From the NCBI RefSeq assembly GCF_000003605.2, contig NW_003155740.1, forward strand, positions 603,002 through 664,386: DNA of 61,385 bases. Direction: 5' to 3'. The notes under the pieces are model-generated. The model had not been told where the DNA came from. It worked only from the letters and a program-made list of their open reading frames with translations, and did not search any database. Below, piece by piece: positions 1,841 to 37,190 of this stretch. The stretch comes from Saccoglossus kowalevskii (lineage: Eukaryota; Hemichordata; Enteropneusta; Harrimaniidae). Within the stretch, counting starts at the first letter, position 1. The number at the start of each line of letters is the position of its first letter. The translations under genes and the position numbers were made by a program.

Positions 1841-2101
1841 TCAAAGCGTTTCAGACTCTATCTCAAGGGCGTTATTCATATCCTGTGCTCCATCTTTCCC
1901 CACGTCATTTTCTTCGTCTGCTTGTGCAGTTTCATCAGTTTCGTTCTTGTGTTTACTACGAACACATATACAGGCGGTAAGTTTCAAAGCGAACAAAGTA
2001 AAGAGACTTTTGATAAATACACAGAATTCGCAGATTGTGATAACAGACACGCCGATATAGAGGCCTAGCAGTCCGCCCATATCACTCATCAGGTCATCGC
2101 T
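1841..2101 (-). CDS. Gene A exon 30: DEG/ENaC TM2, selectivity filter, C-tail, stop
   Basis: The terminal coding exon (261 nt) starts in phase 0 after cgacag and ends at TGA. It encodes SDMGGLLGLYIGVSVITICE, with the G-x-S selectivity filter as GVS and the conserved TM2 Glu. The degenerin site aligns with a small Ser, as in many ENaC subunits. A Cys-containing membrane exit (TACICVRSK) is followed by an acidic tail (ETDETAQADEENDV). Confidence 0.93.
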   Translation of the reverse strand, partial: SDDLMSDMGGLLGLYIGVSVITICEFCVFIKSLFTLFALKLTACICVRSKHKNETDETAQADEENDVGKDGAQDMNNALEIESETL

Positions 2102-2136
2102 CTGTCGAGTTAATCATAGAGTAACATGAAGACTGA

Positions 2137-2166
2137 ATTAGATTAGATTACATTACATTACATTAC
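2137..2166. repeat. Short (GATTA/CATTA)n microsatellite
   Basis: About six 5-bp units, first GATTA and then CATTA, lie in the intron before the terminal exon of gene A. Confidence 0.8.
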
Positions 2167-2285
2167 ACATTTAGTTGACTATAAATCCATAATACATAAT
2201 ATGTAATTCAGGTGTACAATCTGGTACATGACGAATACATGTACGTGGAAAAAACACGTGTGGTACTAGAATCATTGATATTTAC

Positions 2286-2361
2286 CGTATATGCTATCGT
2301 TTCCTTCACGTATTGCACACTTAAACTATCGTAATAGACCTCAATGTACGCCAGATTTTTC
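2286..2361 (-). CDS. Gene A exon 29: DEG/ENaC last palm strand
   Basis: A 76-nt exon, phase 2 to 0, with ttacag acceptor and gtaaat donor. It encodes KNLAYIEVYYDSLSVQYVKE and ends TIAYT. It corresponds to the strand that runs back to the membrane in ASC channels (N....I.VYY..L....), just before TM2. Confidence 0.88.
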
Positions 2362-2452
2362 CTGTAATACAAATACCGTACCATTAGATAAATGCAATTT
2401 GTAGGTTTATAGGGCAGTATCATTATATACAAAGTAACACATGTGTACTTAC

Positions 2453-2523
2453 TGCGCTGACTCGTAGTCAGATATTCGTTTCGTTTTCGGGTTGATTGCA
2501 TTTATACTTTTCAATAGTTGTCT
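2453..2523 (-). CDS. Gene A exon 28: DEG/ENaC linker to last palm strand
   Basis: A 71-nt exon, phase 0 to 2, with tgtacag acceptor and gtaagt donor. It encodes RQLLKSINAINPKTKRI and ends SDYESA. It is basic and poorly conserved in the family at this place. It is supported by good splice sites and by being the only piece that joins exon 27 (phase 0) to exon 29 (phase 2). Confidence 0.72.
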
Positions 2524-2643
2524 CTGTACAGATATGAAAACAAGATTAAAAGCGAAAAAATATCAATTTAACCATAATGTATATTTATGAAAAATCAGTT
2601 GTTCGCTTTACCCCGAAGTCTCGATATTATACTTGTAACTTAC

Positions 2644-2701
2644 CAAATAGCTGTCCGAAGGCCAAGAAGCCAGAGATGTAGTTTTATCAAAACCAGCTTC
2701 C
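2644..2701 (-). CDS. Gene A exon 27: DEG/ENaC late thumb
   Basis: A 58-nt exon, phase 2 to 0, with ctacag acceptor and gtaagt donor. It encodes EAGFDKTTSLASWPSDSYL. The S.A.WPS stretch matches the ASC segment (S..PS) after the conserved thumb cysteines. Confidence 0.85.
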
Positions 2702-2828
2702 CTGTAGAAAATTAAAAAAATAAATATGGTTTATTTTAACTGTAACCAATACGACTTCAATCACAACATCGGATAAGGATAATGTTCACCTGTCATTGTG
2801 GTGTATACGAGTTACAAATAGACTTTAC

Positions 2829-3045
2829 AAGCAAATGACCGGCAAAATCTCACTGAGAACGAGAGCGCGATATGAATGATTTTTAAGTTACAAATTGTGT
2901 TCCATTTTCTCCCGTCATCATATCCACTGTTTCATGTAACCATGGTATTTCAAACATTGGACGTAATGACGAGAGAATATGGAATTCTACTTGAGCGCGT
3001 TGTGTCTCTCTCGCTTTAAACGAGATCTCTGTGGTAATTTGCGTC
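2829..3045. mobile_element. MITE-like palindromic element, copy 1
   Basis: About 215 bp with imperfect terminal inverted repeats of about 35 bp. The left end is GCAAATGACCGGC..ATCTC and the right end reads inward as GCAAATTACCACAGAGATCTC. A second copy with the same ends and a related middle (catgtaaccatggtattt against tatgtaactatggcattt) is at 22981-23190. It has no coding capacity, so it would be non-autonomous. It lies in the gene A intron between exons 26 and 27. Confidence 0.7.
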
Positions 3046-3299
3046 TAGAATATTAATAATAATACAAAAAATCATTAAGGTGTCTTCTGTCTCGTGTTCA
3101 GTTGCAATGAGCACACAGAATATGACGCGTAGTGTAAGACATGGCAAGCGGATACCGTGGTTTATGCAAGTGATTAGTTTATCAATATGGTGTCAGTAAA
3201 TGAGCACCACCAATCCAGTTGATCTAAACGTTATACGTCACTCAGGTGACTTCCCTGTACTGCTTGGTCGTGTAGTGAATTATCCCACTGTTTACTTAC

Positions 3300-3372
3300 T
3301 CGCACGGTGGCCAACAGTCGCATGGCAGTACTTGATTTTGTTGTAAATAATGCATCAGTTGACGACATGCCT
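3300..3372 (-). CDS. Gene A exon 26: DEG/ENaC CDCWPPC segment
   Basis: This 73-nt exon is phase 1 to 2, with tgtttag acceptor and gtaagt donor. It encodes ACRQLMHYLQQNQVLPCDC and WPPC. It supplies the C-x-C-x-P-C segment that ASC subunits carry between the thumb and the last palm strands. It was found by requiring a bridge between the phases of its neighbours, and the bridge is exact. Confidence 0.85.
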
Positions 3373-3627
3373 CTAAACAAATAATACAGGTCTATATTAG
3401 TAAGTATCACAGATAAATCAAGCGTCAATTTTCGTGTATCTGCTCTATAATACTTTGTTACCGTTGGGGAAATCGCTGCTGAAATTGCTTGCTCGTAATA
3501 GTCGGTTATATCTCATTTGGGAGCATCAAGTAATACTCATATTATTAGTATTGGCGAAGATGTAGTTAGTCAGAATATGATTCATCTTAAACTCTCCTCA
3601 CCATACATGGATACTAAAGTTAAATAC

Positions 3628-3772
3628 CTTCATCATAAAAATCCGTGATAAAAACAACTTTCTCACCCTGTGTTTTATTCAAGATATGACATTTTCCTCC
3701 ACCATAAAATGGAACATCCATACAACCACAGTATTCTTGCATTCTGGATTGTAAACAGAAGTGTCTGCAACC
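3628..3772 (-). CDS. Gene A exon 25: DEG/ENaC Cys-rich thumb
   Basis: The 145-nt exon is phase 0 to 1, with atcag acceptor and gtattt donor. It encodes GCRHFCLQSRMQEYCGCMD, then VPFYGGGKC and ends FYDE. The CxxxC and CxC arrangement is the conserved thumb disulphide ladder of the family. Confidence 0.9.
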
Positions 3773-4148
3773 CTGATAAACAAAAAATACAAATTGCTAA
3801 GCCTTGTCAAGTCACATGTTGTAATGTGAATTGTACGCTGACATAGTGCATTCTCTCATATTTGTACCTTTCACTAAATATTATGAAGAGGTACGCTAAT
3901 GATAAATGTAAATATGTAATCGTGTTTCTTTGTACATCAATAGTAAAGTGACGAGCGTAGGGACGCCCGAAACTATTCTGAAAATGCTGACACTTTAATA
4001 ATTAGGTATTATTCGACACACAGTGCATTCTAAGATACTTGTTATGTAGAGAGATTTTTAAGAACAAAATTATTGTTCATCATGATTTAATGATGTATTG
4101 AACTCAAAATGCATTTTATTTTCCAACAAAGTATATGGGTCTGCTTAC

Positions 4149-4235
4149 CAGAGTAGAATGTCTGTAATTTCGATATATGGGATCTGTCGTGCTATTACAG
4201 TCGCTATATTGCTTGCCTTTCCTCTCGTAGATATT
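4149..4235 (-). CDS. Gene A exon 24: DEG/ENaC thumb, YSxC segment
   Basis: The 87-nt exon is phase 0-0, with cacag acceptor and gtaagc donor. It encodes NIYERKGKQYSDCNSTTDP and ends HSTL. It matches the ASC thumb segment in which an aromatic residue and Ser precede a conserved Cys. An NST sequon is present. Confidence 0.85.
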
Positions 4236-4411
4236 CTGTGATAGAGTGAATAATGAAGAACATGCTAAAATTAATGTTTACAAAATAACTAACCCAGTCC
4301 GCATACGGCTTTGGGCGTACAACTAGTCTTCTATTTTACAGAGGTTGCAAGGTTTTTTAAGTGTGCCGGTATGAATCTATAAATACAGAAACGATATAGG
4401 TGTTCCATTAC

Positions 4412-4575
4412 CTGACGTATGGCAAATGATGTGGCGGCCCCTGTTTTGGCTGTCAGACCATTGTCTTCTGGCATAGGCATCTCATAAGGATGGTGAAGAG
4501 TAACGCGAACACCTGATTCTTGACCGTATATTCCAAGGTACTCATGTTGTTCAGTGAATAAAGTTAGCTTCAATC
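4412..4575 (-). CDS. Gene A exon 23: DEG/ENaC palm
   Basis: The 164-nt exon is phase 1 to 0. It encodes GLKLTLFTEQHEYLGIYG, then GVRVTLHHPYEMPMP and TGAATSFAIRQ. GL.LTL..EQ.EYL and the GVRV.LH.P block are standard ASC palm signatures. The frame continues past the gtaatg donor for a while, but the family alignment ends here. Confidence 0.93.
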
Positions 4576-4606
4576 CTAAAGGTTATAACGAACACAGTTA
4601 ACAAAC

Positions 4607-4618
4607 ATCACCACCACC

Positions 4619-4649
<31 letters not shown>

Positions 4650-4655
4650 GCAGCT
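4607..4655. repeat. (CAA)n microsatellite
   Basis: CACCACCAC changes into about twelve CAA units and ends in CAGCAGC. It lies in the intron between gene A exons 22 and 23. Confidence 0.9.
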
Positions 4656-5092
4656 AAAACAGCAACATCAATAATGACTAACTGTGACCATAATCGAACT
4701 AGGTCTAATAAGTATACAGTGTAATATACCAAAGCACGGAACATGAATCCGTTGATTATTCTACACCGCGATCACATCCATGTGACAATAAAAGTGCTCT
4801 AGAATGTCTTTGTTCGTGTTTACAAGAGCATTATAGAGTTAGCATCCGTGTAATACAGTGGTTTTAATTTTGTTACAATTATATCCATTGCAATTAGTTC
4901 AACACGACTTGCTATGAGTTTACGTACATTTTTTTTTCATTATCACATTTTTAATATCTATAACATATTTCTCATTATCGCTCGATAAATGAATATTCAA
5001 AAATTGGATGGTCAATTAAAACGTGAGTATGTGTTGATAAGTAGTGTCTCTGCTAGTACACAAATGAGGTTGTACAAGTTTGAATATATTAC

Positions 5093-5196
5093 CGTATTGT
5101 GCTCCTGACTTCGTAGCATTTCGAAGATCTCCATCCTCCCCATGATTAAAGGTAAAACAGTTGCCATATACTTTGCTTTCAAAGGATTTGAAGTCA
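5093..5196 (-). CDS. Gene A exon 22: DEG/ENaC YGNCFTFN motif
   Basis: The 104-nt exon is phase 2 to 1, with ttgcag acceptor and gtaata donor. It encodes SDFKSFESKVYGNCFTFNHG and ends SGAQY. The YGNCFTFN string is a near-invariant ASC signature in the palm domain. It contains an NAT sequon. Confidence 0.93.
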
Positions 5197-5541
5197 CTGC
5201 AATGAAAGTTATATCAGAGATACGTTAGGTAAAATCTAGTACGTGATTTCTTTCATAATTTCTACCGTAGTGGCGCACTACATGAGTACGCAATATTAAA
5301 AAATGTGTGGCGCACAGGTTCAATGTGCGCGAAGAAAAATAGTTTAGAGGACCTATGTGAAAATAGAGAAAATGTCTGTGGATTATATAACATGTCACTA
5401 ATTAAACTAAAATCAAGTTTTGAACTGTTTCCGTCGATTGTTATACGTTACAGTGCCAGGTATATATTGATAGTGGTGGTGGTCAAATGTTGAACTGGGC
5501 TTTTGACACGCAGAACATTGAAAACAATATATTTTGCGCAC

Positions 5542-5848
5542 CTGTAATTACACGGCCGTTCGTTGTAACTGCATTGTAAAATGAAATCTTCGGCTTGGTG
5601 ACCATACTCATTGATCTCTTCCGTGTTTAACTGGAGCACATTTTGAAGGTCGCTGAAATCAGGAGTGGCGCTAAAAGTGACAAATCCGTTCCAGTCAGGA
5701 GGATCTTCACGTCTTACTCTGTCGAACCCAGGATCTTTATAATAATACCTTAAAAAATCGTCGTAGAGATTCTTTGGGGTAGACGTTTTCGACATGTTGG
5801 AGTAACGATGCCACCACCCGTCTTCGAAAACGTCTGTTTTACTTAAAT
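5542..5848 (-). CDS. Gene A exon 21: DEG/ENaC finger and thumb region
   Basis: The 307-nt exon is phase 1 to 2, with tcctag acceptor and gtgcgc donor. It encodes the part of the ASC ectodomain after the inserted modules: a finger-like stretch (NLYDDFLRYYYKDPGFD) and the hallmark GHQAEDFILQCSYN with CNY. The GHQ..DFIL.C motif is characteristic of the family. The acceptor's phase 1 is the same as that of the inserted modules, so host and insert share one phase-1 boundary. Confidence 0.92.
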
Positions 5849-7007
5849 CTAGGAAAATGTAATAGTAAATTCAAGTAAAAAAAAATATCAGTATCCCTAA
5901 GTACGAATGTCAAACGACAAATGATCCCACTATAATTGCGCGCACATCGAACATATTCTGAAATATATACCCGTTGGTGATTTTGGAATTGATCAACAAA
6001 ATCAGGCCCGTTTTTGCAGTGATACGTTCAAATTTAGCATGGTAGAAAATGAAATTCACTTTGTTTTTATATGTCCATTTTATAATGCTCTAAGGGCTGA
6101 TCTTTTGTCAATAACCCTATGCAATTATGCAAATACTGACAGTCTGGGCTTACTTCGTCGCTACACAAACTGTCACACCATATAACAAATAGCTCTATAT
6201 CTTTTAAAAGTTTTCAAGCGACGAGATGAATATGAATCCAGCTTAACTTAGTACCATATGTTTACATGGATGTTGTATTGTGTTTAAAACGTTCTATGCA
6301 CTTTTCTACCTATTACATTTTATACGATAGGCTGAGGCCCTGTACAGAAATAAAATTACATAATACACAATTGACTAATACTAAAAGGAATAATTGTAGA
6401 CAGATTTCGACATGAAATCGTGTCACTTTTATGTGCGCTAACATCTGCGAAGAGCGAAAAAACTCGTAAGTAGTCTTCTACCTTAAAATACTTAAACAAT
6501 AATGCTAAGATAAGTACAGTCTTATCTTTTTTGTGTACAACATTTAGCCGTAGTGGATCAAGGGTGTGGATGTGTTTTTCTGTAGGTGAGGAATGGCTCA
6601 GGACCCCTTCTCTAAAATGGTAAAATAGTTCAAGGATGTTATGTGAAATATCTTACCAACGTAACACAAAGTAACCCAATTGAATTTAAAACCGATAATA
6701 TAAAAATATCTGTAATCTGTTACACACTTTTTGAATATTTTAAAATTCACACATTTCACATCAAATATATAATTGTTGTTTTCGAACCCCCTGTTCAAAA
6801 GTGCTGGCTACGGCCTGAAAATCCTGTAACAGGTTCAACTAGGAGACAGTCAATAAGTACTGGTGTGGTGTGATCAAATCTGTATATACCGCGGATTAAA
6901 CGTTCTACCATTTTCGCTAGCCAGGGTCTAAGTTTATTCGGCCAAGCCTCTAAACAGACCTTGGCAGAACGACCATCAAATATGCGTATTCTAACATTTT
7001 GAACAAA

Positions 7008-7175
7008 ATGGCGGCGCCCATGAATCGTGATATTTGTGATGATAAAATTGTTTTCGGTGCCTTCAAGCCTCATCAGGTACAGGCAATCGACACAGTTTTG
7101 TGTGGGAAGGATGTCTTCATGCCGACAAAAACAGGAAGTGGAATATTGTTTTATAATTTAGTACGTCCAAGATGA
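7008..7175 (+). pseudogene. RecQ-like helicase fragment
   Basis: Plus-strand reading gives 55 codons to a stop, including FKPHQVQAI (Q-motif-like entry of RecQ-type helicases), GKDVFMPTKTGSG (Walker A region) and then Ile where the catalytic Lys should be. RecQ-type helicases unwind DNA using ATP. This piece has only the first motifs, so it is a broken fragment, either a processed copy or part of a mobile element. It sits opposite to gene A in its 1.5-kb intron between exons 20 and 21. Confidence 0.6.
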
Positions 7176-7206
7176 TTGGGCGCCTTGTTTCGAGGCGCGC
7201 CCAATC
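7174..7206. repeat. GC-rich hairpin
   Basis: GATTGGGCGCC and GGCGCGCCCAATC form an almost perfect inverted repeat around a 9-nt loop. It directly follows the stop of the helicase fragment and may mark an element end. Confidence 0.6.
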
Positions 7207-7312
7207 AGATCTCACTGCTTAAGATACGCAATTAGCCTTAGCAATCCCGCACGGTATCGTGTAGAGACCTATAGGTCGAAGACCTGGACCGTGCGATTCG
7301 GATGATGACGTT

Positions 7313-7351
7313 CTACACGCGTACTACATGCGTATTACACGCGTACTACAC
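7313..7351. repeat. 11-bp tandem repeat
   Basis: About three and a half units of TACACGCGTAC/TACATGCGTAT lie just downstream of the exon 20 donor of gene A. Confidence 0.75.
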
Positions 7352-7377
7352 ACATACAGCGTGGTTGGGCGTATTAC

Positions 7378-7521
7378 CTTTGTAGATGCACTGCGACCAG
7401 AATTCGTCGTTACCGTCCGGGCAATCGCTGTTGATATCACAGAACAGAACGTCATCAATGCAGGATTTCTCATCACACTTGAAAAAATCAGGCGGACAAT
7501 TACCGAGTTCATCCGGTGTGA
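7378..7521 (-). CDS. Gene A exon 20: LDLa module 6
   Basis: The exon is 144 nt, phase 1-1, with ttcag acceptor and a gtaata donor. It encodes CPPDFFKCDEKSC, then CDINSDCPDGNDEF and a final Cys. The calcium motif is DGNDE rather than DGSDE. It is the last module before the channel sequence resumes, and its downstream intron (1.5 kb) holds helicase-like debris. Confidence 0.92.
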
Positions 7522-8005
7522 CTGAAATGAATCAAAGAATTGTGTTTTTGTCGAAACAACATAAATCAGAAATTCTATACCTGAATGAGATCCAAAGAAA
7601 CTTCAACACTCCCGCGTTCCTTTTTTAAAAATTATTATCTCCTATGGCCAAATAATGCATTAATAGTTACGTATAGTGTTTATTTATTCTGTACGGCCAA
7701 TGTTAAATCACATTTACTTTATCATTGCCATTTATGACAAATGCGTTAGTCACATATGAAAACATGGCAACAATAGCCCTTGGACGCGAGAGAGCATTGG
7801 GTCTTCTTGCCTTTCAAATAGTCTCCCATCCTCTCATTCATAATCACGTTCCAAATACCATGGTTATGTCGGCCATGGAAACAAACAAGATGAATTGCCA
7901 TCTTACTAGAGAGACACGGCTCTTTTGAAGTCCCTTTCACACAGCGTGCTCTGAGTCCCGCGTTACATAATAGACAAAGGTGTCTAACAACAACAATGTA
8001 CTTAC

Positions 8006-8125
8006 CTTGCTTTCCTTCACATATTTTACAACTTAGAGGGCAGTATCTCATCATGTATGAGGGATTCTGCTCACACTCTCCATTGTCTGCCCAGTGTGGA
8101 CACTGCTCTTGAATATCGGTACACA
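8006..8125 (-). CDS. Gene A exon 19: ShKT module
   Basis: The exon is 120 nt, phase 1-1, with gtaagt donor. It encodes a six-cysteine ShKT domain with spacing C-x6-C-x8-C-x10-C-x3-C-x2-C and the typical WADNGEC and NPSYM segments. ShKT domains occur in secreted proteases and surface proteins as well as in peptides that block potassium channels. At the position of the functional Lys-Tyr pair known from the founding peptide, this copy has Ser-Tyr, so pore block is not expected. It sits between LDLa 5 and LDLa 6. Confidence 0.92.
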
Positions 8126-8542
8126 CTTCAAGTGTGAAGAAGAACAAATAGACAGTGATTCAATAACTAATTGGGCTGTAGAGTTGGTAATATGATAACA
8201 ACATTCAATTTCAGTAGTGAGAGGAGGGTAGTTCGTCAAACACTGGACAATATTTGTTCCGGGACTAAAGTACAAAAAGTCTAACGTTGCACCGTGTTAG
8301 ATTTAAAATTACGTACTTTGAATTAACCTTTTTCGTGTCAATGATTCGTGATGTAAAAATGTTGAGATTACCGCGGCGTGATAAACATCCCATTTACCCT
8401 CACATAAGTATACGTTGTTATGCTTATATCATGTGGTCCTTATTGAACGAATGCGGATACGATGACCATCGAGTTGGAAATACATAGATATAAGCGACAT
8501 GAGTCTATGTGTAAGTTCAATGTCAAAACAATGTTAACTCAC

Positions 8543-8665
8543 GTAAGCTTGTGCAGTTCTGTAGCTCATCACTGTGATCTTTACAGTCATTGAAACTGTT
8601 ACACACCTTCCATCCTTTGATGCACTCACCACTGTCACATTTGAACTCGTTCTTGTTACATGGTC
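8543..8665 (-). CDS. Gene A exon 18: LDLa module 5
   Basis: The exon is 123 nt, phase 1-1, with acatag acceptor and gtgagt donor. It encodes [16 protein letters not shown], then [17 protein letters not shown]. Six cysteines and the DHSDE motif are intact. The usual CDG is CNS, a common LDLa variation. An NCT sequon follows. Confidence 0.93.
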
Positions 8666-8984
8666 CTATGTAGAAAACAAACACACGTCATGAGGCCGAC
8701 ATATAAGCAGATCGCAATATCCAGTTATCTATGTGTTTCATCTGTGAGGTTAGTTTTAACGCAAAGTAGTAAGATACCTAGACGAGACGCGCGACAAGGT
8801 GTAGATAGCGTTATTCTGATATTTCACAATTAAAACCTGTTTAATTGAATATAAATGGCGCCTGGGGTGGCCACTCTGGTAAAATTGTGTCACCAAAACT
8901 TCCCCGACGCTGCGTATCCGGATTGACGGTGGAACAGGGGGCATGTCACTAAAGAATGTCACATCGCATCACTATAATACTCAC

Positions 8985-9101
8985 TATATTGGCAGCCAAC
9001 TTCGTCACTATTATCGCCGCAGTTGTCGTTCCAATCGCAGTGTTCTTCACGGGGAATACATTTTTTGTTGTCACATGTATATTCCCATTCTTGACATACT
9101 C
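8985..9101 (-). CDS. Gene A exon 17: LDLa module 4
   Basis: The exon is 117 nt, phase 1-1, with tttgtag acceptor and gtgagt donor. It encodes CQEWEYTCDNKKCIP, then CDWNDNCGDNSDEVGC. Six cysteines and the DNSDE calcium motif are intact. It is the shortest of the LDLa exons. Confidence 0.93.
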
Positions 9102-9538
9102 CTACAAATTAAAATTTAAACATTATTTCCGCAGATGAGACTTAGAATCGATTTAATTACAAACGAAATCTATTGAAAGAAATAAAATTTGCACTAGCAA
9201 AATAAAAAAAAAATGGACAATGAAAACATTGGTATTTAAGCTGAATACGTCTAAATTAAATTATTAAAGTTGAATTTCCACTTTTGTATGATATAAAGAA
9301 TAATAATATTGGGAATACAGTGAAAAATTCTTTTTATTGGACTGGGGGTTGTGAGCGTATCAATATGACTTACATAAATTCCCATTCAACGGCACAATGA
9401 ACGCACCCATAAATATAAATCTGCGCACGTCTTCGACGCATGTCCAGTGAGAAGATCACTTATCACGAACATATACTTGATTTCGTGCGTTTGTAATTTG
9501 TATATGCGAAATACGTGAAATTTTAAAAATGCACTCAC

Positions 9539-9664
9539 TAAATTTACACCCGTCCTCGTCACTCCCGTCTCGACAGTCTTTCTTATAGTCGCATTTATCG
9601 GTGTAGGGATGACAGAAATTGCCATCGCAGAAAAATCCCTCGCACTCTCGGGCATCACCGCCAC
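9539..9664 (-). CDS. Gene A exon 16: LDLa module 3
   Basis: The exon is 126 nt, phase 1-1, with gtgagt donor. It encodes CEGFFCDGNFC, then CDYKKDCRDGSDEDGC. It is a canonical LDLa repeat with six cysteines and an intact DGSDE calcium motif. It follows a Gly-rich linker (GGGDARE). Confidence 0.93.
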
Positions 9665-9768
9665 CTAGTGTTGAAACATAGAAAGTCATTGTGTTGCAGA
9701 TGGACTAGTACAAGAGAATTGATTTCAAGACATCTCTGTTTGTGATTCTAATGTTTGCCTGATCTTAC

Positions 9769-9897
9769 CGCAATTCTTCTCGTCTTCTTTCTCGTTACAG
9801 TCTGGAATGCCATCGCATTGCAGTGACGATGGGATACACACGCCGGATAAACCTCCCTTGGAGCATTTGAACTGGTCTGAACCGCACACATAGTTAC
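9769..9897 (-). CDS. Gene A exon 15: LDLa module 2
   Basis: The exon is 129 nt, phase 1-1. It encodes [23 protein letters not shown] and [10 protein letters not shown]. Six cysteines are kept, but the usual DxSDE calcium cage is ExEDE. Acidic side chains remain, so calcium binding is possible but may be weakened. Confidence 0.93.
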
Positions 9898-9988: not shown

Positions 9989-10108
9989 TGTAATCGCAAC
10001 CGAATTCGTCGCTTCCATCCGGGCAATTCCTCATTCCATCGCATACAAGATAGGCTTTGACGCAGTGGACACCGTTGTTACAAATAAAGTCCCCGGGAAG
10101 ACACGGAA
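9989..10108 (-). CDS. Gene A exon 14: LDLa module 1
   Basis: The exon is 120 nt, phase 1-1, with ctcag acceptor and gtgagt donor. It encodes a complete LDL-receptor class A repeat: six cysteines, CDGMRNC and the calcium-binding CPDGSDEFGC. It begins the run of modules that interrupts the channel ectodomain right after the first palm strand. Confidence 0.93.
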
Positions 10109-10889: not shown

Positions 10890-11329
10890 CGTAGTAGGCT
10901 TGGACTTTGACGTTCAGCATGAGATTTACAAACGGGTAATGGTTGCTCAGTCGCAGCGCTGATGCTCGTACTTTGTTCGTGTTGCATACCGTTACTGCCG
11001 GGAACGGCAATGTGGGCCAAGCTATCTCCTCCATATCGATATTCACTTTGTAATCAAAGAACCGAAACACCATCACAGAGGCCTGTACGATAAAACCAAT
11101 ACAGGCACCGAGCACCACCAACGCCCATAACAGGCGACTTGCGCTTGATTTCGAGCGACCAATATTGGGAAGACCGTGCCAAGTAGTATTGTCGCAGAAT
11201 TCGTGAGTGACCTGGTTCAGTTCATGTGCAAACTGTGACTTGTTCTTGTCTTCGTTTTCATCGCAACTAGAAAGTGACACGTCATCACCTAACACATCAT
11301 CGCCAGCGTCTTCCGGTGACGCCGTCGAC
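10890..11329 (-). CDS. Gene A exon 13: DEG/ENaC N-terminus, His-Gly motif, TM1, palm start
   Basis: The largest exon (440 nt, phase 2 to 1). It starts with an acidic cytoplasmic stretch (SPEDAGDDVLGDDVS), then the ASC gating motif TTWHGLPNIG with conserved His-Gly. TM1 follows (LLWALVVLGACIGFIVQ), then the extracellular palm strand FPAVTVCNTN, a family hallmark. It ends shortly after, at QAYY, with gtacgt. There is no Met between its acceptor and TM1, so this exon cannot by itself start a separate channel protein. At the sites of the ASIC proton-sensing His pair it has Lys-Val. Confidence 0.92.
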
Positions 11330-11679: not shown

Positions 11680-11738
11680 TTTGGGATGTTTCCATTGCTA
11701 GCGATATCCACTGTATATCCATTATTGTGCCGACCTTG
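11680..11738 (-). CDS. Gene A exon 12: cytoplasmic linker
   Basis: This 59-nt exon is phase 0 to 2, with ttttgcag acceptor and gtgagt donor. It encodes QGRHNNGYTVDIASNGNIP, a polar linker without a recognised motif and without Met. It bridges the helix exon and the channel exon, with introns of only 93 and 350 nt on its two sides. Its phases are the only ones that link the two neighbours in frame. Confidence 0.7.
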
Positions 11739-11831: not shown

Positions 11832-11977
11832 AACCATACTCTTGTGCCGATACAGTGCACTGCGTCTGCGCAGAGCCATTTTCTTCTTTTTTCGTCGTTT
11901 GCGAACGCATACCACAGTTACATTTATTGCAATCAAGATGGCCACCAAAAGGACCTGCGCTGCGATCAGAATTGACA
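11832..11977 (-). CDS. Gene A exon 11: first transmembrane helix
   Basis: The 146-nt exon is phase 1 to 0, between ttttcag and gtaagt. It encodes a helix of about 23 hydrophobic residues (starting VSILIAAQVLLVAIL), then a stop-transfer run VRKRRKKKK and a basic segment (MALRRRSALYRHKSMV). By the positive-inside rule the EGF arm is outside and the basic part is cytoplasmic. This agrees with the cytoplasmic N-terminus that DEG/ENaC subunits require further on. Confidence 0.85.
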
Positions 11978-12092: not shown

Positions 12093-12218
12093 CAAGGTTC
12101 AATTCGCAGTCTGGACCTATCCACCACGTATTGCATTTACAAGTGTACGCCAAACAGTCCTCCGATGGAATACACGTTCCGCCATTGTGACAAGGCATGA
12201 GTCGACAAGCATCAAAAC
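12093..12218 (-). CDS. Gene A exon 10: EGF-like domain 8, juxtamembrane
   Basis: The exon is 126 nt, phase 1-1. It encodes CRLMPCHNGGTCIPSEDC, then CKCNTWWIGPDCELNL. It has seven cysteines: the Cys after C-x-C is replaced by a Trp pair (NTWW), while the extra Cys before C4 (SEDC) is kept. This repeat sits directly before the membrane helix, so the predicted free cysteine would lie close to the cell surface. Confidence 0.88.
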
Positions 12219-12703: not shown

Positions 12704-12826
12704 TCGTTTCGCACATGTCTCCTTTATAACAAGTAGGGCACGTACAATTGTACTCCGTACAAGATCCTTCCAATGGCTCGCATATTCCTTGGTTCTGACA
12801 CGGACTCGAGTCGCATGGATTCTTCC
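12704..12826 (-). CDS. Gene A exon 9: EGF-like domain 7 (8 Cys)
   Basis: The exon is 123 nt, phase 1-1, with ggcag acceptor and gtgagt donor. It encodes [21 protein letters not shown], split here as [12 protein letters not shown] and ICEPLEGSC, then CTCPTC and CYKGDMC. It is closest to EGF repeat 2 in loop lengths (EGSC and CPTC are shared), which suggests a recent duplication within the array. Confidence 0.9.
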
Positions 12827-13236: not shown

Positions 13237-13365
13237 AGTTTTGGCACACCTTCCCTTCATAGCATGGCGGACATTTACATTGATAATCCATGCATTTGTC
13301 TTCAACTGTCCTGCACGTACCGCCATTACGACATGGTTGAAAAAACTCACAGGAGTCATTCACAA
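13237..13365 (-). CDS. Gene A exon 8: EGF-like domain 6 (8 Cys)
   Basis: The exon is 129 nt, phase 1-1. The acceptor is ccaaag, chosen because it is the AG that keeps the phase and the reading frame. It encodes DSCEFFQPCRNGGTCRTVEDKC, here split for reading as DSCEFFQPC and RNGGTCRTVEDKC, then CKCPPC and CYEGKVC. Eight cysteines are present. Confidence 0.88.
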
Positions 13366-13797: not shown

Positions 13798-13917
13798 GTT
13801 TGTCGCAGTATTTACCGGTATAACAGTCGTCACATGAACACGAATACTGGTAGCACGACCTCTCATCACGTACGCACTCTCCGTGCTGACACAAGTCATC
13901 CAAACACGGGTCAAGAA
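13798..13917 (-). CDS. Gene A exon 7: EGF-like domain 5 (8 Cys)
   Basis: The exon is 120 nt, phase 1-1, with gggcag acceptor and gtaagt donor. It encodes DPCLDDLCQHGECVRDERSC, then CSCDDC and CYTGKYC. All eight cysteines are present. Charged loops (DERS, DD) distinguish it from its neighbours. It is separated from the preceding exon by only 164 nt. Confidence 0.9.
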
Positions 13918-14081: not shown

Positions 14082-14198
14082 GGTCCTGGCATTCTGGACC
14101 AGTGAAACATCCGGGACATTCGCATCTATGATTACAGGAAACCTCGTCCGGCAAACAAACTCCACGACTACATGGATTTGGCTGGCATGGGTTGTACA
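14082..14198 (-). CDS. Gene A exon 6: EGF-like domain 4 (8 Cys)
   Basis: The exon is 117 nt, phase 1-1, with a ctctag acceptor and gtaagt donor. It encodes NPCQPNPCSRGVCLPDEVSC, then CECPGC and CFTGPEC. All eight cysteines are present. Shorter loops than in the neighbouring repeats make it the most compact copy. Confidence 0.9.
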
Positions 14199-14672: not shown

Positions 14673-14819
14673 CTGTTTGGCATTGTTTACCAACATAACA
14701 CCCATCTTCTTTGTTACTACATTTACATTCGTAATCACTGCACTGGTCCCCAATCGGATGACACGTGGTATTGAATCCTTCTCGGACCGGACACGGATTG
14801 GTGTTACAGGCATTGTTAT
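14673..14819 (-). CDS. Gene A exon 5: EGF-like domain 3 (8 Cys)
   Basis: The exon is 147 nt, phase 1-1, between ttttcag-like acceptor sequence and gtaagt. It is the longest EGF repeat here: the loop between C2 and C3 is stretched (PVREGFNTT) and so is the loop before the seventh Cys (SNKEDG). Eight cysteines are kept. An NTT sequon could be glycosylated. Confidence 0.88.
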
Positions 14820-22802: not shown

Positions 22803-22925
22803 CGATTTCACAGTTCGTGCCGGAGTAACATGTTGGACACAAACATTCGTAGTCAGTACACGACCCTTCTTTCAGTTGGCATACACCACCATTTACACAC
22901 GGATTACTGTTGCAAGCAGAAGGAC
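22803..22925 (-). CDS. Gene A exon 4: EGF-like domain 2 (8 Cys)
   Basis: The exon is 123 nt, phase 1-1, with a gtgagt donor. It encodes CNSNPCVNGGVCQLKEGSC followed by a CLCPTC core and CYSGTNC. Eight cysteines give the pattern C-x4-C-x5-C-x6-C-x4-C-x-C-x2-C-x6-C, two more than a standard EGF. The next exon downstream is 8 kb away, yet phase and repeat type continue there. Confidence 0.9.
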
Positions 22926-23617: not shown

Positions 23618-23740
23618 CGTATTCACAGTGTTCACCGTGATAGCAATCCGTGCAGTAACAACTGTATGCTGTATACAGGCCGATCACGAGCTGACACACT
23701 CCGCCATTTTGACAACGATCCCCGTCGCAAGGATTTCCAG
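23618..23740 (-). CDS. Gene A exon 3: EGF-like domain 1
   Basis: The exon is 123 nt, phase 1-1, between tgttag and gtaggt. It encodes an EGF-like domain starting NPCDGDRCQNGGVCQ and ending CYHGEHCEY. Seven cysteines are visible. Against the other repeats it lacks the extra Cys expected between C3 and C4, where VIGLYTAYS stands instead, but keeps the extra Cys of the CTDC segment. One cysteine is therefore predicted to be unpaired inside this module. Confidence 0.88.
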
Positions 23741-24463: not shown

Positions 24464-24724
24464 TCGTTCGTCTGCTCTCTGTGGCTGTAATATTCCTTCC
24501 ATTTACAAATGCAGACACAAAAATGCTGTATTGCGTGCCGGGAAATAATCCAGAAAACGTGTATTCCATGAGAGATGTAGACAATGAAACAGGAAATACG
24601 CCGTCCGCTGCTGGGTCCAACAAAATAATTATGCTGTCGCCAGTAATCGTTCCATATATCTGCCATGATGCTTTGATTACTGTAGGGCTGACATGAGTGA
24701 TAGTAATTTTGATAATCTCGTCCT
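24464..24724 (-). CDS. Gene A exon 2: fibronectin type III domain
   Basis: The 261-nt exon is flanked by tttcag and gtacgt and is phase 1-1. It encodes one FN3 domain of 87 residues: the B-strand Trp in KASWQIYG, the Y-x-F-x-G-L motif (YTFSGLFPGTQYSI) before the F strand, and a TES tail. FN3 domains are extracellular beta-sandwich adhesion or ligand-binding modules. A potential N-glycosylation site (NIT) lies near the end. Only one FN3 exon was found, although neighbours in the large upstream intron could have been missed. Confidence 0.8.
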
Positions 24725-30279: not shown

Positions 30280-30660
30280 GGCAGGCCAGTCACACTGGTT
30301 CTCACCACAAGAGGTTACGATCCCCCCTGCCAAATGCTAAGTACAACTGAAACTAATATCTACATATTTACATGAAAAAATGTCCACCTGTGCGGATCTA
30401 TTTGTGCAGGCGTTTTACGACCGTATGCCCTTACTGACGTCAACCGAACTTGTTATGTGGGAAGTTGGCACCCAAGACTCACAGGTGCTACACCTTGCCC
30501 AAGGGTGACCTGGAGGTAGTTGCGGCAAAGGATAACCTCATTCTCCCGAGTACAAAAACTCCGCAACCGGATGCAATTTTAACGTCGTACCCAGGACATA
30601 AAAAATATGTTTTAAAGCTGAAAACCGACACTACTAAGCCATGAGGCCAAACCTGTAATA
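30280..30660 (-). mobile_element. tRNA-derived SINE-like element
   Basis: Read on the minus strand, TGGCTTAGTAG (30641-30631) resembles an RNA polymerase III A box. About 40 nt further, GGGTACGACGTT (30592-30581) resembles a degenerate B box, preceded by GTCCTG as in many tRNA-derived SINEs. Downstream follow TTGCGG and a CTTGGGCAAGGTG segment. The downstream end and target duplication are not clear. Confidence 0.5.
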
Positions 30661-33600
30661 AACCAGGAGCGCTGAAAAGCACCGCGTTCACCCGCGCGAT
30701 CAGTGTGTGTTGTGTTTTCAAGTTAACGTTGTCGACACCAAACGAAACCATCGTGACAATAGAGGGATGCATTAATCATAGATAAACATAATAAACAGCA
30801 TTCAGTGATTTTGGGATTTGAATAATTCGTAAAAAAGGGCTCGTGATATACAAGTATAATATAACAAAAACTATATAATACAAGTGATGTTTGTTCAATA
30901 TACGCATGTCAAGCTCAGAATGATATCCATGATGTGTAGCAGTGCGTTAGGCACGTACAACGTCACTACAGATAAATATGATGACTGCAAACAAATTGTT
31001 AGATAACCTAATACGTGAAATGGTACAACAGAGAGTATAGGAAAAAAACACGATCACGAGCCCAACATTGATAGGCAGCATAAAGAGCAATTGCAGTGGG
31101 GTTCGTGATTCTTCCATCAATATGTATAGGTCTTTTTAGACGTATTACAATTTATCCTATCCAATTTTTGTTCAATATTCTGGAATATGATTTGTTCTCA
31201 AGAACTTTTGTATCTATAGTTCAAAAGCGATGAATAACCAGCTCCTGCAAAGTATTAATGCTAAACACCTAGAAACAAAACACCGATTGCCTTCTCAGCG
31301 ATATTGGATGTTGTGGTGGAATTGCTCTAGCAAATCGGTAAGAGAAGGCTGATAAATCCAAGCACGCAAAGATTCGGTGTTATGCAATTCATCCAACATA
31401 TACGATTTGAAATACATAAATTAATAACTTGTACAAGCTATTGTGTTAATGTATGAATAAAGTGATGTTGCAGTATTACTAAATGCCGTACATGACTGTT
31501 TAATAAGATATAATGCACGACTGGATAGATACAATCCTCAGATGGGAAAAACCTTTTATGTGTCATTAAAACACATTCAATTTTTACTTCATTGTGCGGA
31601 CTGTAACATTCTGAATGTAATTGCATGTGACGTCATATGCTAATAGGGAACTCAGTTACTTTCCTATATGAAGTCTATATCGAATTATGTAAGTGTATGT
31701 GTGTATAAGATTGGATTTTTAAGACTGTAAACTTATTTAATTTCGTATGAGACAATTTTGGCGAAATGTTGTCTTCGCGAATGCAATAAACTCCAAATGT
31801 TTTAGCAGTGCGAATTGAAGAATTCAAATTACACAATTGGTAAATAATTAACATACTAATAATATCTTGAATTAACTCTACTTTATTAACAAAGCCGGGG
31901 AGGAACGGGGAATCGCAAATACTCCTTTGTGAACATAATGTTGTATTCCCGCATTGTGTACTAGTGTGGGGTGTGCCATATGGGTATATATTTTGATGTG
32001 GCTTTACTTGCTTGTTTCAATTTAATATTGAGAGTTCAATAACATACTTAACACCGTTGGAGCATAAACATCCGCTTTTAGTATCTATTCCGGTAGGGAA
32101 CGTGGGCTGTTCGACGTGTTGTTCTTTTATACATTTCTTGGTAAATTCAGATCTACGTGAATGTGCCGTATGTACATACATTTTTTACACCATTCGCATC
32201 CGCGTATTTAAGTGAACCTCTAATATCTAATTTAGGTTCTTCGCTTTCTATTTTACAGACTTGTTTGGATTAATCCGTCTATAATATACATTCACACGAT
32301 GTCTCGATTGCATGCAGAGTAGAAACTAATTACGTTGCATTGTACATTGATTTTTAACGCATGTATAACCTGGGCTAATGGTGTCAGATTCAACGTAATC
32401 GAATGTCAAGACAGACTAATTCAATATGCTCATATCGGACATGACACGAAGTCATAGTAGCACGTGTCTTACACGCTTACAATATATTTACCTGGTCAAC
32501 GCGAATGTAATGATGTACATCGAAATGTGCTTATGCTGGTTAGTAGAGTTTTACGAGCTTAGGAACTTCGGCATTCCGATATGCCCCGTGGGCAATTACA
32601 GTTCGAGAATAGCTTAAACCAATTAGGGTATTCTGTCATAACAGTGGTGTTCGATACTGAATTATTGATTTCTATTTTTTGTTTCGTTTCTCTCTTATAA
32701 AATGCCAAAAGTACGATTCTGGAAAGGCGCAATCGATTTTTTTCTCCCAAATTATACTAATTAAAATGAATTAAACATATCGATTTTATCTATTTTGTGG
32801 ACGCCATTACTTCTAATTAGAAGTACCACATGATCGATAAAACGATCTGGCAATTAGTGTTGTTGTCAATGATGCATAAACGAACGACATAGTGAATGAG
32901 TACGTGTGTGATCGCTACACATCTCTGATCGACGTCTCCAACTAAAATATCATCGGTGTATAGCTGATACACAACTAACATTAAAGTGCCGCGCGCGTCG
33001 TAAATATGCAACTTACACGCGTTCCCCTCCAATATATGGATTACAGTTAATAACTATTAGCATTACAGTAAACAGACGATATGTCGGACAGAGTACCTAC
33101 AACTGATTTTTTTTTTCTTATTTCCAGACATAGAATTACAGTAACAACTTCTTAAGTGTACACGTTATTCCACTTAACGTCTCAAACTTCTCTTACCGGA
33201 CTTTATGTAAACATATTCAAAGTGTATAGATTCATTGGCGCATTGAAAACGACGGTCTCGAGTCAATGCGCAATTTGACTAGCTGTAGGCTCTTCAGTTA
33301 TTCTTCGTTACAGATACAATAGTGTAAATATGATGACGTGACTTGGCTGTCTTAATAGCATATCCTCGAAGAATTTTATGAAAAGTAAACGTTTTATGAT
33401 AACGGTGTCGAGTTTCAGGCGGCGGTGTCTGAAGTATAGTCCGAATTCCAACGATTGGCAAACTGAGACGTCTGTCTCCATATTTTCTAAGGTCTGATCT
33501 CAGCTTAGTTTCCAGGCTTCATTATTTACCTTCAATTTTAGAAATAAATATCGAGAGCTATTATTGCAATTAGGCGTTTTTAATATAAATATTATGTCAA

Positions 33601-34967
33601 TTACCCTAATGATGTACGCGAATGTGAAGAGTTTGCGGCCACATATCTTTTGTTATTTATTATTATTAGATTATTAACTATTGAATATTCATTATTATGA
33701 TGGGCAGTGTAATAGTGTAGCCTCGTTCAGATGCCAGAATGGAGTACCAGATGTACAGGGTCGCGAAGGCTCAAATAATAGAATAAATCGACCGTGACGG
33801 AAGTATGGACATAAATAAAGGGTTCTCAACGAGCCATGATACGGGTCCCACGCAAGGTCCCGTGCAACGCGTGTCTAATTCATTTTTTACATGACATTGA
33901 GCGCGTTTCGTGGCGAACATAGTGTTTTAATCCTACCCGAGTTTGAAATAAAAAAAGCGATACGACAAAAATAAAAAAAAAACAGACCAGTATGCCAAGG
34001 CAGCGGGATGTTAATTATCAATACGCACTCGTTACGTCATCACCTACTTTGTTAAACATGAATATACAGAATTCATGTATTATATTTGTAAACTGATTTG
34101 TAAAAATGAAACTTTATTTTTATTTTCAGTATAAATGCAAAATGTTGTTTATTTGTCGTGTGACCTGTATATTTAGCACCAGCTAGCCTCTTAGAAACTA
34201 CGAAACTTTGAGCTACCACTTTGAAACCAGACAATTTAATAAATGTAACAGGTGTTAGGTCGAATTTATTTTAAAATTTGGGTTTACACAATATACTGTT
34301 CTGCGGCAGACACATTAATAATCGCCAAAAGGGGACTGAAATCAATCGAACCGTTTAACATATTCCGCATAGTTTAAAATGAATTTATAACGTACGTAGC
34401 AAAACAGGCACATTTACGGGATTTATTTATTATCTGAAAGTATTGAACTACGATCAATCATATTGCGTCTTTGGAACAGTGCGTGAAAACCTCCATATTC
34501 ATGACTGATGCCATTGTTACGCCGTCACGGTATGAAAAACACATGTCACAAGTATGTGATATATTTATTTCAGTTATATTGAGAATATCTTTATGAATAA
34601 CACAATATGTTTTTTTGTTCTTCAAATAAAGAAATGGACCTTGCTAACAGCGAATGGTTTAAATACGGAACACAAGTAAATATGTTATGCTTTTTCAATG
34701 TGTGACGACGTCCAAGTTAATTAAGTTTTCTCCTTTTCTCTGAATTTATCTATGGCAATAACAAAATGGCTATTCAAAACCTCGTTTCCGAAATAAAAGA
34801 CTAAATCACAGCACGGTATTATGGGAAACAGTCGTTTATTTTGCGCTCCTTTCAGATGTTATTGTAAGTGAAATTGCAATCCCGTCTAAGTAGATAACAC
34901 TTGTTAAGATGCTCCTTCGCGAGATTAGAGATGAAATGAACAGTCATTGGGCGTGCTGTAATTTGAA

Positions 34968-34977
34968 TCTCGCGAGA
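34968..34977. promoter_or_regulatory. TCTCGCGAGA palindrome, site 2
   Basis: A second exact copy lies within a locally CpG-rich stretch (about 34.91-35.06 kb) that also holds TTCGCGAGAT. No nearby exon was identified, so any role is speculative. Confidence 0.35.
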
Positions 34978-37117
34978 GTCGACCCCCTGACTCATTCAAC
35001 AAATCGTACAAGGAAAGATACATTGGGTAATGGCGATGGTCGTCGCGCAGTGAGTTCGATTTTTTGTGTACGCAAACAATATATTTTACATGCGCTGTAC
35101 ACTTCACATAGGACCCGTATTAATTACAATGCGTCGCGAAATCCTGAAAGTTGCAGATTAAAAATACCGCGCTGAAATATTTGTGGAGAGAGGGATTTCT
35201 GAATAGGAAGGAGCGGATGTGTCGTGGCCACGGTCCTTCAAAATAACAAAGACTTTTGAATGACTTTGTTTATAACATGGTTCCGATTATTACGATGGTA
35301 AAGCATGTAACCTTGTGCGCAAACGGTTATGACGTTGTTATAATAAATGCATATTCAATATATTTAGCCATAATTAACATATCACATTGGGCGACTGACA
35401 CTGGAGCCCAATCAAAATTGCCTTGTAAGAAATTGCGATATCCTAACTCAATTTGTTTAATTATGAACCAGAAGTGTATGTATTTTTACCAAAACATGCC
35501 TATGGTGTATATTTTTTTTATTCTGGAAACTGACGATATAATCTTTAAAATCGGTTTATCAGTGCACATTGGATTGTATTTAGCTATAGCGACAGTGACG
35601 GTTATTAATTATATTGAACTGGATCTGACCTTGTTACATAACGTTAACGTGACGTGAACAATTTATATCCTGTTAGATTTTGACTAACCACTCCTTTGGG
35701 TATTCACTGTTCACATTGTTAAACTAATTTGCTGGAAGTACAATGCCTGGACTGTTAGCACACTAAATACCCTTTAATGTATGTGTACAAAATTAATTTT
35801 CAAGAAGTGTGAATCATAATATAATGCGGGACACATCAAATAACAAAATGCTCATTTTTATAAGAAATATAAAATGCCGGAATTGTTTGTGCTTTCAATT
35901 GTAAGTGTACTGTCAGGTTTGATTTCCATCCTCATCATTTTGTAAATACGAGAAAACCAATAGCGCAGGCAGGTTATAAAAACGTAACTGTTGATATTGT
36001 TAATGTTGTTGCTTACCGAGGCATGCAAATTATTGCCCTGCTAATTACACATGGTTGGCGACACGTGTTTTTAATGCATTGTGTAGTGTGTGTTACGAAG
36101 TACAACGCGGCTAATAACGGAGTATGACTTTACATGAACTATTATCCGGTAGCCACCTAGTGACTTATATCTTGATTGAATTTGAAGCTAGCAAATCTAC
36201 AACGACGCTGCGAGTATTTATTTTCGTTAATTTTTCTAATTATTTTAATTATCGGGATAATTACCCGAAAAAACTCGAATACAATTAACACGCCTGTGAC
36301 ATTTGTCGGTGACGTCATTGTTTACACTTTGCCCACATGTCGCCTTATATGAATATTCATTCCGTTGTTAAGTTTTCTTGAATATTGTTGACAAAATATG
36401 TCGGATCAATCTAGAATTTACTCCGACGTAAAATTGAAATGTACACGATGTTATTACAATAATATACTTCAACGCAATATACGGATTTTTTGAGAGGTTT
36501 CACAGAATAATCCCCTAATGTAAACAGTATAGAATAGAAAGAGTGTCATTCGAAGAACAGTTTTGCCGTATGTCGTTCACTGTCACGGCCAATTTGATTG
36601 TCATTACAGAATTAGGCTCGCTTGATTACAATTTTTCCGAATCACTGACAATTCACTGGACACTGCAATCGCAGAAAAAAGTCGCTGCAATTCGCGTTGT
36701 AACAACGTGTTATGACATTTCCAGTCAATTAATGATCACGGGGACAAACTCCACAATGAGGGATAAATGTGATAAAATGCACCGACATAAAAAAATGACA
36801 ATTTAGAATTAAAGAAATTACAAAAAAACGAAATAAATTAAATTAGTACTATTGCAGTGTCGAGTAGGTCTTGATTACCAATTTGAAATTTTAAACATGT
36901 TATTTGTATCTACTATTGCCCTCCGTTACTACAGTGTTATGAAATTAACATGAACTTTCAGCTACCAACGTAACTCGCGTATGTGGAATTATCGCTCAAT
37001 TCACTTTCATTAATTCAATTGTAATCTCAGATATATGTACACACATGAGTAGAAATATACACGTTTTTTTCACTGAATACATGCCAATAAAGGTATCAAA
37101 AACAAACTTTTACTCAC

Positions 37118-37190
37118 CGCTTTGCACAGGAAGGGTTATGCAAAAAGAAATCGCGAGAAACGAAACCGCGGTTAATATAATCCGTGACAT
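37118..37190 (-). CDS. Gene A exon 1: start codon and signal peptide
   Basis: The exon opens at an ATG and encodes 24 residues: a short basic start (MSR), a hydrophobic core rich in I, L, A, F and V, then a polar end (PVQS) typical of a signal-peptidase region. It ends with a strong gtgagt donor in phase 1. That phase matches the FN3 exon 12.4 kb downstream, making the junction codon Glu. A phase-1 signal-peptide exon is usual in extracellular modular proteins. An in-frame start further upstream was not seen. The link to the FN3 exon is inferred from phase, strand and order only. Confidence 0.6.

Follow-up and report, generated by a model that had tools for sequence, protein, structure and literature searches.

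Can a channel subunit of the DEG/ENaC family carry its own extracellular anchor on the same polypeptide chain? This question is raised by a gene in a 61,385-nucleotide stretch of DNA from the hemichordate Saccoglossus kowalevskii (C4507:603002-664386; hereafter, the window), for which an initial annotation had proposed that an adhesion-receptor-like arm, composed of a signal peptide, a fibronectin type III domain (FN3), eight EGF-like repeats and a membrane helix (TM0), is joined in frame to a complete channel subunit (ASC), with LDLa and ShKT modules inside the channel ectodomain. Our analysis indicates that this arm-channel layout most probably reflects a genuine gene architecture rather than two genes run together: the gene can be rebuilt as one open frame, a diverged paralog on the same contig displays the same order of modules, and a bridging exon between arm and channel is present in both models. 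On balance, the sequence favors a single gene for a single DEG/ENaC subunit with three membrane helices, which would be self-tethered, that is, anchored or gated via an extracellular partner.

Organization of the gene

Rebuilt from the DNA, the gene occupies positions 1841-37190 of the window (C4507 604842-640191) on the minus strand and runs through 30 exons, from an ATG at 37190 to a TGA at 1841, with no internal stop codons; all 29 introns are of the GT-AG type, and the phases are concordant at every junction. Thus, the single in-frame chain of modules with 29 agreeing junctions, as initially claimed, was recovered. As for the claimed coding length of 4,212 nucleotides (nt), divisible by three, the frame holds and the length does not: we arrive at 4,173 nt, i.e., 1,390 amino acids and the stop codon. 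A longer in-frame donor of exon 25 (3772-3628 rather than 3772-3667) adds exactly the 39 nt in question and was rejected because one paralog of the gene (B, below) stops at the same NKTQ, also when the phase is left free, whereas another (A), which lacks introns 24/25 and 25/26 so that three window exons form one frame (C4507:127610-127879, L071), reads through without the 13 extra residues.

The arm starts with exon 1 (37118-37190), which encodes the start codon and signal peptide (MSRIILTAVSFLAISFCITLPVQS) and is the sole candidate, no rival signal-peptide exon with fitting phase having been found in a crude screen of the minus strand from 24.7 to 61.4 kb. FN3 is encoded by exon 2 (24464-24724) and is followed by the EGF-like repeats, one per exon, most of them assigned by their cysteine patterns: EGF1 (exon 3, 23618-23740; 7 cysteines; a counterpart exists in paralog A), EGF2 and EGF3 (exons 4 and 5, 22803-22925 and 14673-14819), and EGF4 to EGF7 (exons 6-9, 14082-14198, 13798-13917, 13237-13365 and 12704-12826; also compared with paralog B), each of EGF2 to EGF7 with 8 cysteines. 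EGF8 (exon 10, 12093-12218), assigned by Pfam and by paralog B, has 7 cysteines, with WW replacing one. Exon 11 (11832-11977; phase 1 in, 0 out), called by hydropathy, carries TM0 and a basic stop-transfer segment, VRKRRKKKK; exon 12 (11680-11738; phase 0 in, 2 out), the predicted cytosolic linker, was the best of 17 bridging candidates; and exon 13 (10890-11329; phase 2 in, 1 out) encodes the channel N-terminus with the HG motif, the first channel helix (TM1) and the start of the ectodomain (Pfam ASC, 2.7e-22 for exons 11-13).

The block inserted after TM1, assigned by Pfam and, for the LDLa modules, also by paralog B, comprises LDLa1 to LDLa5 (exons 14-18, 9989-10108, 9769-9897, 9539-9664, 8985-9101 and 8543-8665), ShKT (exon 19, 8006-8125) and LDLa6 (exon 20, 7378-7521). 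Exons 2-10 and 14-20 are all of phase 1-1, the usual signature of shuffled modules, and hence both added blocks carry classical exon-shuffling exons. The remainder of the finger region, with a furin-like RVRR site (amino acids 999-1002) and the sequence EDFILQC, is encoded by exon 21 (5542-5848). The rest of the ectodomain is encoded by exons 22 (5093-5196), 23 (4412-4575, with a counterpart in paralog A) and 24 (4149-4235), by exons 25 (3667-3772, short donor preferred in view of both paralogs) and 26 (3300-3372), which cover the cysteine-rich region, and by exons 27 (2644-2701), 28 (2453-2523) and 29 (2286-2361). Exon 30 (1841-2101) contains the second channel helix (TM2) with a GVS filter of the GxS type, a cytosolic tail ending in SETL and the stop codon. 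The first AATAAA 3′ of the stop codon (1539-1544) is a candidate polyadenylation signal.

No missed EGF or LDLa exons were detected in the long introns when the model exons were compared with the whole window by tblastn (E ≤0.01); the single match outside the model contains a stop codon. The intron 5′ of exon 23 harbors a CAA microsatellite of 18 copies (4618-4671). Elsewhere in the window, two exon-sized frames on the minus strand (54672-57224) match Brix (1.2e-8 and 2.6e-10), which points to a neighboring gene of the ribosome-biogenesis type.

A paralog with the same order of modules

A search of the genome (572 Mb in 4830 contigs) with the TM1 exon and exons 2-12 as queries revealed two further copies on C4507. 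Paralog B occupies about 154.3 to 137.4 kb of the minus strand, some 450 kb from the window gene, and displays, on one strand, five EGF repeats, TM0, a linker mini-exon, TM1, five LDLa modules, ShKT, another LDLa and the channel. The B model consists of 24 exons, equivalent to window exons 6-29, and encodes 1,071 amino acids with no stop, its linker exon of 44 nt having been placed by eye as the one to fit; the TM2 motif follows downstream, at about 137.5 kb. In Pfam scans of the B translation, ASC, six LDLa modules and ShK were over their cut-offs, and EGF (0.0013) was under it.

The LDLa modules of the two genes correspond one to one. Of the 24 exons, 21 are 34-67% identical to their window counterparts (the exceptions being exon 24, 20%, TM0, 24%, and the linker, 11%), or, by block, 42-47% for EGF, 34-67% for LDLa/ShKT and 20-67% for the channel exons. 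All six LDLa exons of B and four of its five EGF exons score best against their own window counterparts; exon 7 (EGF) scores higher against window exons 4 and 9. These best matches imply that the layout predates the duplication, and the common ancestor of the two genes accordingly already had EGF repeats, TM0, LDLa/ShKT modules and the channel side by side. Differences between the window gene and B at third codon positions (0.66 for EGF, 0.60 for LDLa/ShKT and 0.66 for the channel) exceed those at first and second positions (0.30-0.41), a pattern indicative of purifying selection in each of the three blocks. The basic charge after TM0 is present in both genes (VRKRRKKKK in the window, KRRQFVRQR in B).

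Paralog A, on the plus strand, has FN3 at 111.2 kb, EGF1 at 112.3 kb (56% identical to EGF1 of the window) and channel exons 23-30 at 126.8-130.3 kb. This arrangement is consistent with the link between arm and channel without demonstrating it. No signal-peptide exon was found in a crude screen of the 5.2 kb upstream of its FN3.

LDLa-bearing channels in the same genome

In a genome search with Pfam ASC, at least 93 of 217 candidates scored, the window exons included. Our sample of TM1 segments comprised 36 other rows with at least 57 residues, two of which (L007 and L027) represent the same place. At least 13 DEG/ENaC loci other than the window gene, B included, have an LDLa exon in the roughly 1.5 kb that follow TM1 (L010, L014, L016, L021, L023, L024, L026, L028, L029, L030, L033, L035 and L036), and thus form a large family of LDLa-bearing channels; for most loci, only this interval was covered, so that a missing LDLa there means little. 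A weak match at L034 was dropped as chance. In 9 of the 13 loci, the nearest LDLa after TM1 matches LDLa1 of the window best. For one LDLa locus, on C2340, 5 kb further were examined and contained neither ShKT nor a further channel exon.

The TM1 tree joins the window gene with B (98/91) and places each of the 14 LDLa-labelled rows in the larger of its two groups. The LDLa label nevertheless requires 9 changes on this tree, a value equaled in 42 of 500 shuffles, and a single origin of LDLa is thus not shown. Among the matches listed, EGF-type and channel matches co-occur only on C4507, which carries all three arm-bearing genes found (the window gene, A and B, the latter two seen in part); no arm was found outside these three, and the only ShKT matches listed on channel contigs are those of the window gene and B. 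We took a match on C3226 that spans the TM0-TM1 part of the B query (27%, five stops) as an over-extended TM1 match. The simplest history would be one in which LDLa came first and the FN3-EGF-TM0 arm was added later.

Two other observations concern this search. Five single-piece ASC matches of about 200 residues each on C3473 (L002-L006), one with two stops, form a separate group in the tree, and C759, C3809 and other contigs contain similar EGF arrays with no channel match among the matches listed.

Domains and motifs of the predicted protein

The domain assignments of the initial annotation held to different degrees. In a Pfam scan of the whole protein, ASC (3e-81), extending from TM1 to TM2 in two stretches parted by the LDLa/ShKT insert, and Ldl_recept_a (7e-29, six stretches) were over their cut-offs; ShK, unlisted in that scan, was recognized on exon 19 alone (5.6e-11). 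The fn3 call was weak (0.013 for the whole protein and 2.7e-4 for the first 112 amino acids, both under the curated cut-off), and the counterpart exon of paralog A scored 4.4e-8, over it. Weakest of all was EGF: PF00008 was unlisted for the whole protein and reached 0.0097, under the cut-off, for the EGF block, and EGF8 alone was over it (1.4e-4). The EGF_TEN profile gave 1.9e-7, yet below its own cut-off, and phmmer against solved structures returned EGF matches from Notch and Delta-like proteins. All eight repeats retain the six canonical EGF cysteines without exception. Seven of the eight have an extra cysteine in the C3-C4 loop, which only EGF1 lacks, and seven of the eight have another in the C5-C6 loop, which only EGF8 lacks; we attribute the weak Pfam score to this 8-cysteine variant. 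EGF1 and EGF8 are consequently left with odd numbers of cysteines, and the last EGF repeat of B likewise has 7; the odd cysteines could form a disulfide between subunits.

Hydropathy (19-residue segments at ≥1.6) delineates the signal peptide, called in this way rather than by a trained predictor, at residues 1-24, TM0 at 442-475, TM1 at 578-607 and TM2 at 1312-1343, with weaker, overlapping hydrophobic stretches just after TM2, up to 1351. The N-terminal half fits a type I adhesion receptor, with a signal peptide, an FN3/EGF ectodomain, a single membrane helix and stop-transfer charge. A dystroglycan-like match at TM0 (E 0.05-0.07, under the cut-off) was taken as chance. The channel motifs are intact, with the HG motif (TTWHG, 564-568) ahead of TM1 and the GVS filter (1321-1323) in TM2, and the closest solved structures to the channel core are FaNaC1, ASIC2 and gamma-ENaC (5e-42 to 3e-40). 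In the ASIC2 alignment, the LDLa/ShKT insert sits between chain residues 116 and 157, which we take to be the finger region; the claim that six LDLa modules and ShKT lie inside the channel ectodomain stands, the order being five LDLa modules, ShKT and the sixth LDLa. We make no claim of ENaC-like proteolytic activation at RVRR, for which B has RVGR. The C-terminal SETL is presumably of the class I PDZ type.

The calcium-cage pattern is present in all six LDLa modules. LDL receptor modules grip lysines of their ligands by a tryptophan at a set place; none of the six modules has tryptophan at that place, and LDLa5 has one a residue earlier. Canonical lysine binding of the LDL receptor kind thus appears unlikely, which weakens the "lipoprotein-like" part of the ligands initially suggested, though the calcium cages are complete in pattern. 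Motif searches of the protein found neither YWTD nor RGD, and the only NPxY (amino acid 888) is extracellular, inside ShKT.

One gene or two

Everything depends on the junction between arm and channel. In the first B model, the window phases had been imposed on exons 13-29, and agreement there is therefore no proof by itself; in a second scan, with phase left free, 22 of the 24 exons again took the window phases and 21 kept their coordinates, exon 9 of B being drawn to a neighboring EGF exon. The modelled bridge, which takes phase 0 from the TM0 exon and delivers phase 2 to the TM1 exon, ranked top among 17 candidates in the window and 18 in B, and was matched in only 1 of 300 dinucleotide shuffles for the window and 7 of 300 for B; a bridge to the other exon 13 acceptor of B is unremarkable (equaled in 109 of 300 shuffles). 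In the window, exon 13 contains no in-frame methionine before TM1. Such a methionine, ahead of the HG motif, is present in 26 of the 29 other TM1 loci, B among them (one has none and two were unscored), a count in which the open frame may include intron. The shared order of modules in B, the phase 0-2 bridge in both genes and the lack of a methionine in exon 13 bear out the initial claim of one gene with the whole module set, and we consider the one-gene layout very probable from these comparisons.

Several observations weigh against this conclusion. TM0 and the linker barely resemble those of B (24% and 11%), and their codon differences (0.55, 0.45 and 0.71 at the three positions over 55 codons) suggest weaker constraint; in the phase-free scan, exon 12 could not be aligned, and the exon 13 acceptor is a near tie with one of a different phase (244.8 vs 242.8 in the first model). 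The TM0 exon of B (C4507:150209-150343, L073) remains open for about 45 residues beyond its donor and then meets a stop, so that a separate or shorter, receptor-only product could end there. Two methionines of exon 11, Met481 and Met495, closely follow TM0 and show A at position -3 and G at position +4, and B has a methionine near the start of its modelled exon 13, whereby a plain channel without the arm could arise. For B, an assembly gap that begins at C4507:155731 takes in FN3 and the signal peptide or separates them from the model, and a 12-kb run of N in A (112644-124648) falls exactly over EGF2 to mid-channel; because of these gaps, the full set of modules is seen end to end in no second copy. 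Finally, the EGF1 exon of A (C4507:112307-112435, L069) has, as assembled, no in-phase donor and loses its last cysteine in frame, due either to an assembly error or to decay.

Some of these points would be expected if two adjoining genes, an FN3-EGF-TM receptor whose last exon is 11 or 12 and, in exons 13-30, an LDLa/ShKT channel, had been misread as one and copied as a block: similarity to B is lowest at exons 11-12, alignment fixes neither exon 12 nor the exon 13 acceptor of B when phase is free, the TM0 exon of B stays open to a stop, and, among the matches listed, no contig outside C4507 has both EGF-type and channel matches. However, two genes copied as a block would leave the presence of a 0-2 bridge, rare in shuffles, in both copies without explanation; moreover, window exon 13 lacks a start codon before TM1, and the sole AATAAA between 10890 and 12093 sits within coding exon 11. 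We regard this scenario as quite improbable. Decay or misassembly of the gene, as might be suspected from the long introns 1 and 4 and from the gap and doubtful EGF1 exon of A, is less credible still, in the face of 1,390 open codons, introns that are all GT-AG and a codon pattern of purifying selection relative to B.

Two further alternatives accept the layout and question what is made of it. The locus could yield two products, the full-length arm-channel protein and a plain LDLa/ShKT channel that starts from an internal promoter or start codon (Met481 or Met495) and does most of the channel work. The good context of both methionines, the methionine in B and those in the same frame ahead of the HG motif in most relatives speak for such a product, but the methionine positions differ between the window and B, and an internal promoter would be confined to the short introns before exons 11-13, or lie further up; overall, this arrangement seems unlikely. 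Alternatively, the arm might serve as an adhesion or trafficking module only, while the channel, like FaNaC and ASIC, is gated by a soluble ligand such as protons or a neuropeptide, and LDLa/ShKT are devoted to folding or partner assembly. That the channel core is nearest to FaNaC1 and ASIC2 and that, B aside, LDLa occurs at no fewer than 12 other loci for which no arm was detected is compatible with this possibility, which we view as doubtful given that the arm was kept through a deep duplication, though pure anchoring fits that, too.

A proposed self-tethered, three-helix subunit

Whether DEG/ENaC channels are coupled to their surroundings by a matrix tether, by membrane force or by a ligand is unsettled, in part because the anchor and the channel, being separate proteins, are difficult to reconstitute jointly. 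Under the reading favored here, of one gene for one subunit, a single full-length transcript would encode both. The signal peptide would place FN3 and the eight EGF repeats outside the cell, and TM0, followed by its basic cluster, would cross inward, a topology predicted from hydropathy and the positive-inside rule. With positive charge after TM0 in the window gene and in B alike, the channel N-terminus would stay cytosolic, as DEG/ENaC proteins need. A cytosolic linker of about 110 residues would then lead to an intact DEG/ENaC subunit, with the HG motif in the cytosol, TM1, a large ectodomain into whose finger region LDLa1 to LDLa5, ShKT and LDLa6 appear to have been spliced as phase 1-1 exons, TM2 with the GxS filter and a cytosolic tail.

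Because the known channel motifs are present, a sodium-conducting trimer is the default expectation. Three subunits would thus form a trimeric, sodium-permeable channel surrounded by three FN3-EGF arms and three LDLa/ShKT arms. These would probably bind a matrix or cell-surface partner and hold the channel at a contact site, and a pull on the partner, or binding to it, could open or modulate the channel. Extracellular anchoring is, in our judgment, probable given this architecture, and force or contact gating proper is only tentatively suggested by it. With similar reserve, it may be conjectured that a sodium channel gated mechanically or by contact arose on one chain in this lineage, by shuffling of LDLa (and ShKT) into the finger and in-frame joining of an FN3-EGF-TM0 receptor to the N-terminus, which would give each subunit its own tether and a third helix beside the pore. 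If this is true, the DEG/ENaC plan would go from two helices to three, and, with the adhesion head and the channel on one chain that can be expressed whole, truncated or pulled, the tether question would become directly testable.

Comparison with known systems

FaNaC, ASIC and ENaC subunits share with the predicted protein the channel core, the HG motif, the GxS filter and the cysteine-rich ectodomain; they are not known to carry an FN3-EGF arm, TM0, LDLa or ShKT. Closer to home, the LDLa-bearing ASC paralogs of the same genome share the LDLa exon after the TM1 exon, but no EGF/TM0 arm was found in any of them except B, and most have an in-frame methionine before TM1. The arm and the insert recall other families. 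Tandem LDLa modules with the calcium-cage pattern are common to this gene and the LDL receptor family, from which it differs in having no YWTD, no cytosolic NPxY and no tryptophan at the lysine-gripping place. The EGF arrays of teneurins and Notch are nearest to the repeats described here in profile and structure, whereas the latter add two cysteines within the canonical six; Pfam scans of the protein detected no teneurin or Notch domains beyond EGF.

Our searches of the open-licence literature, as far as its accessible text goes, turned up no DEG/ENaC protein described as containing LDLa, ShKT or FN3. Term searches within PMC9822975, PMC10148893, PMC10507113 and PMC9234716 (EGF and LDL in all four, ShK in three, fibronectin in two) brought up no such protein in the text returned, and the EGF matches shown in PMC10507113 are to EGFP. 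The nearest named precedent for the combination of EGF and ASC is the group EGAS-1 to EGAS-4 of C. elegans, in which, as in this gene model, both are part of one polypeptide, according to passages of PMC10424705; we set it beside our gene by this published description only. In the window and B gene models, EGF-like repeats and ASC likewise meet in one protein, with EGF profile scores that are weak except for EGF8. LDL and ShK go unmentioned in a term search of the main text of PMC10424705. That oocytes expressing EGAS proteins carried currents no higher than control, as the same source reports, counsels caution with respect to gating.

A further comparison is with the touch complex of C. elegans. 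According to passages of PMC9108448 and PMC6499529, the MEC-4 complex requires MEC-1, MEC-9 and the collagen MEC-5 to cluster, and touch currents are disrupted when MEC-5 or MEC-9 is lost. The tether model and doubts about it are discussed in PMC10148893, and a passage of PMC9108448 likewise places parts of the model in doubt, which tells against a tethered mode of action here as well. Like the arm of the present gene, MEC-1 and MEC-9 are EGF-rich and extracellular and act with a DEG/ENaC channel. They are, however, separate EGF/Kunitz proteins, whereas the present gene has its EGF array on the same polypeptide as the channel. The arm may thus represent part of an extracellular anchor built into the chain, a role for which MEC-4/MEC-10 uses separate MEC-1 and MEC-9; if so, an anchor supplied to the touch channel of C. 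elegans by separate proteins would be, in this hemichordate, a covalent part of the channel itself.

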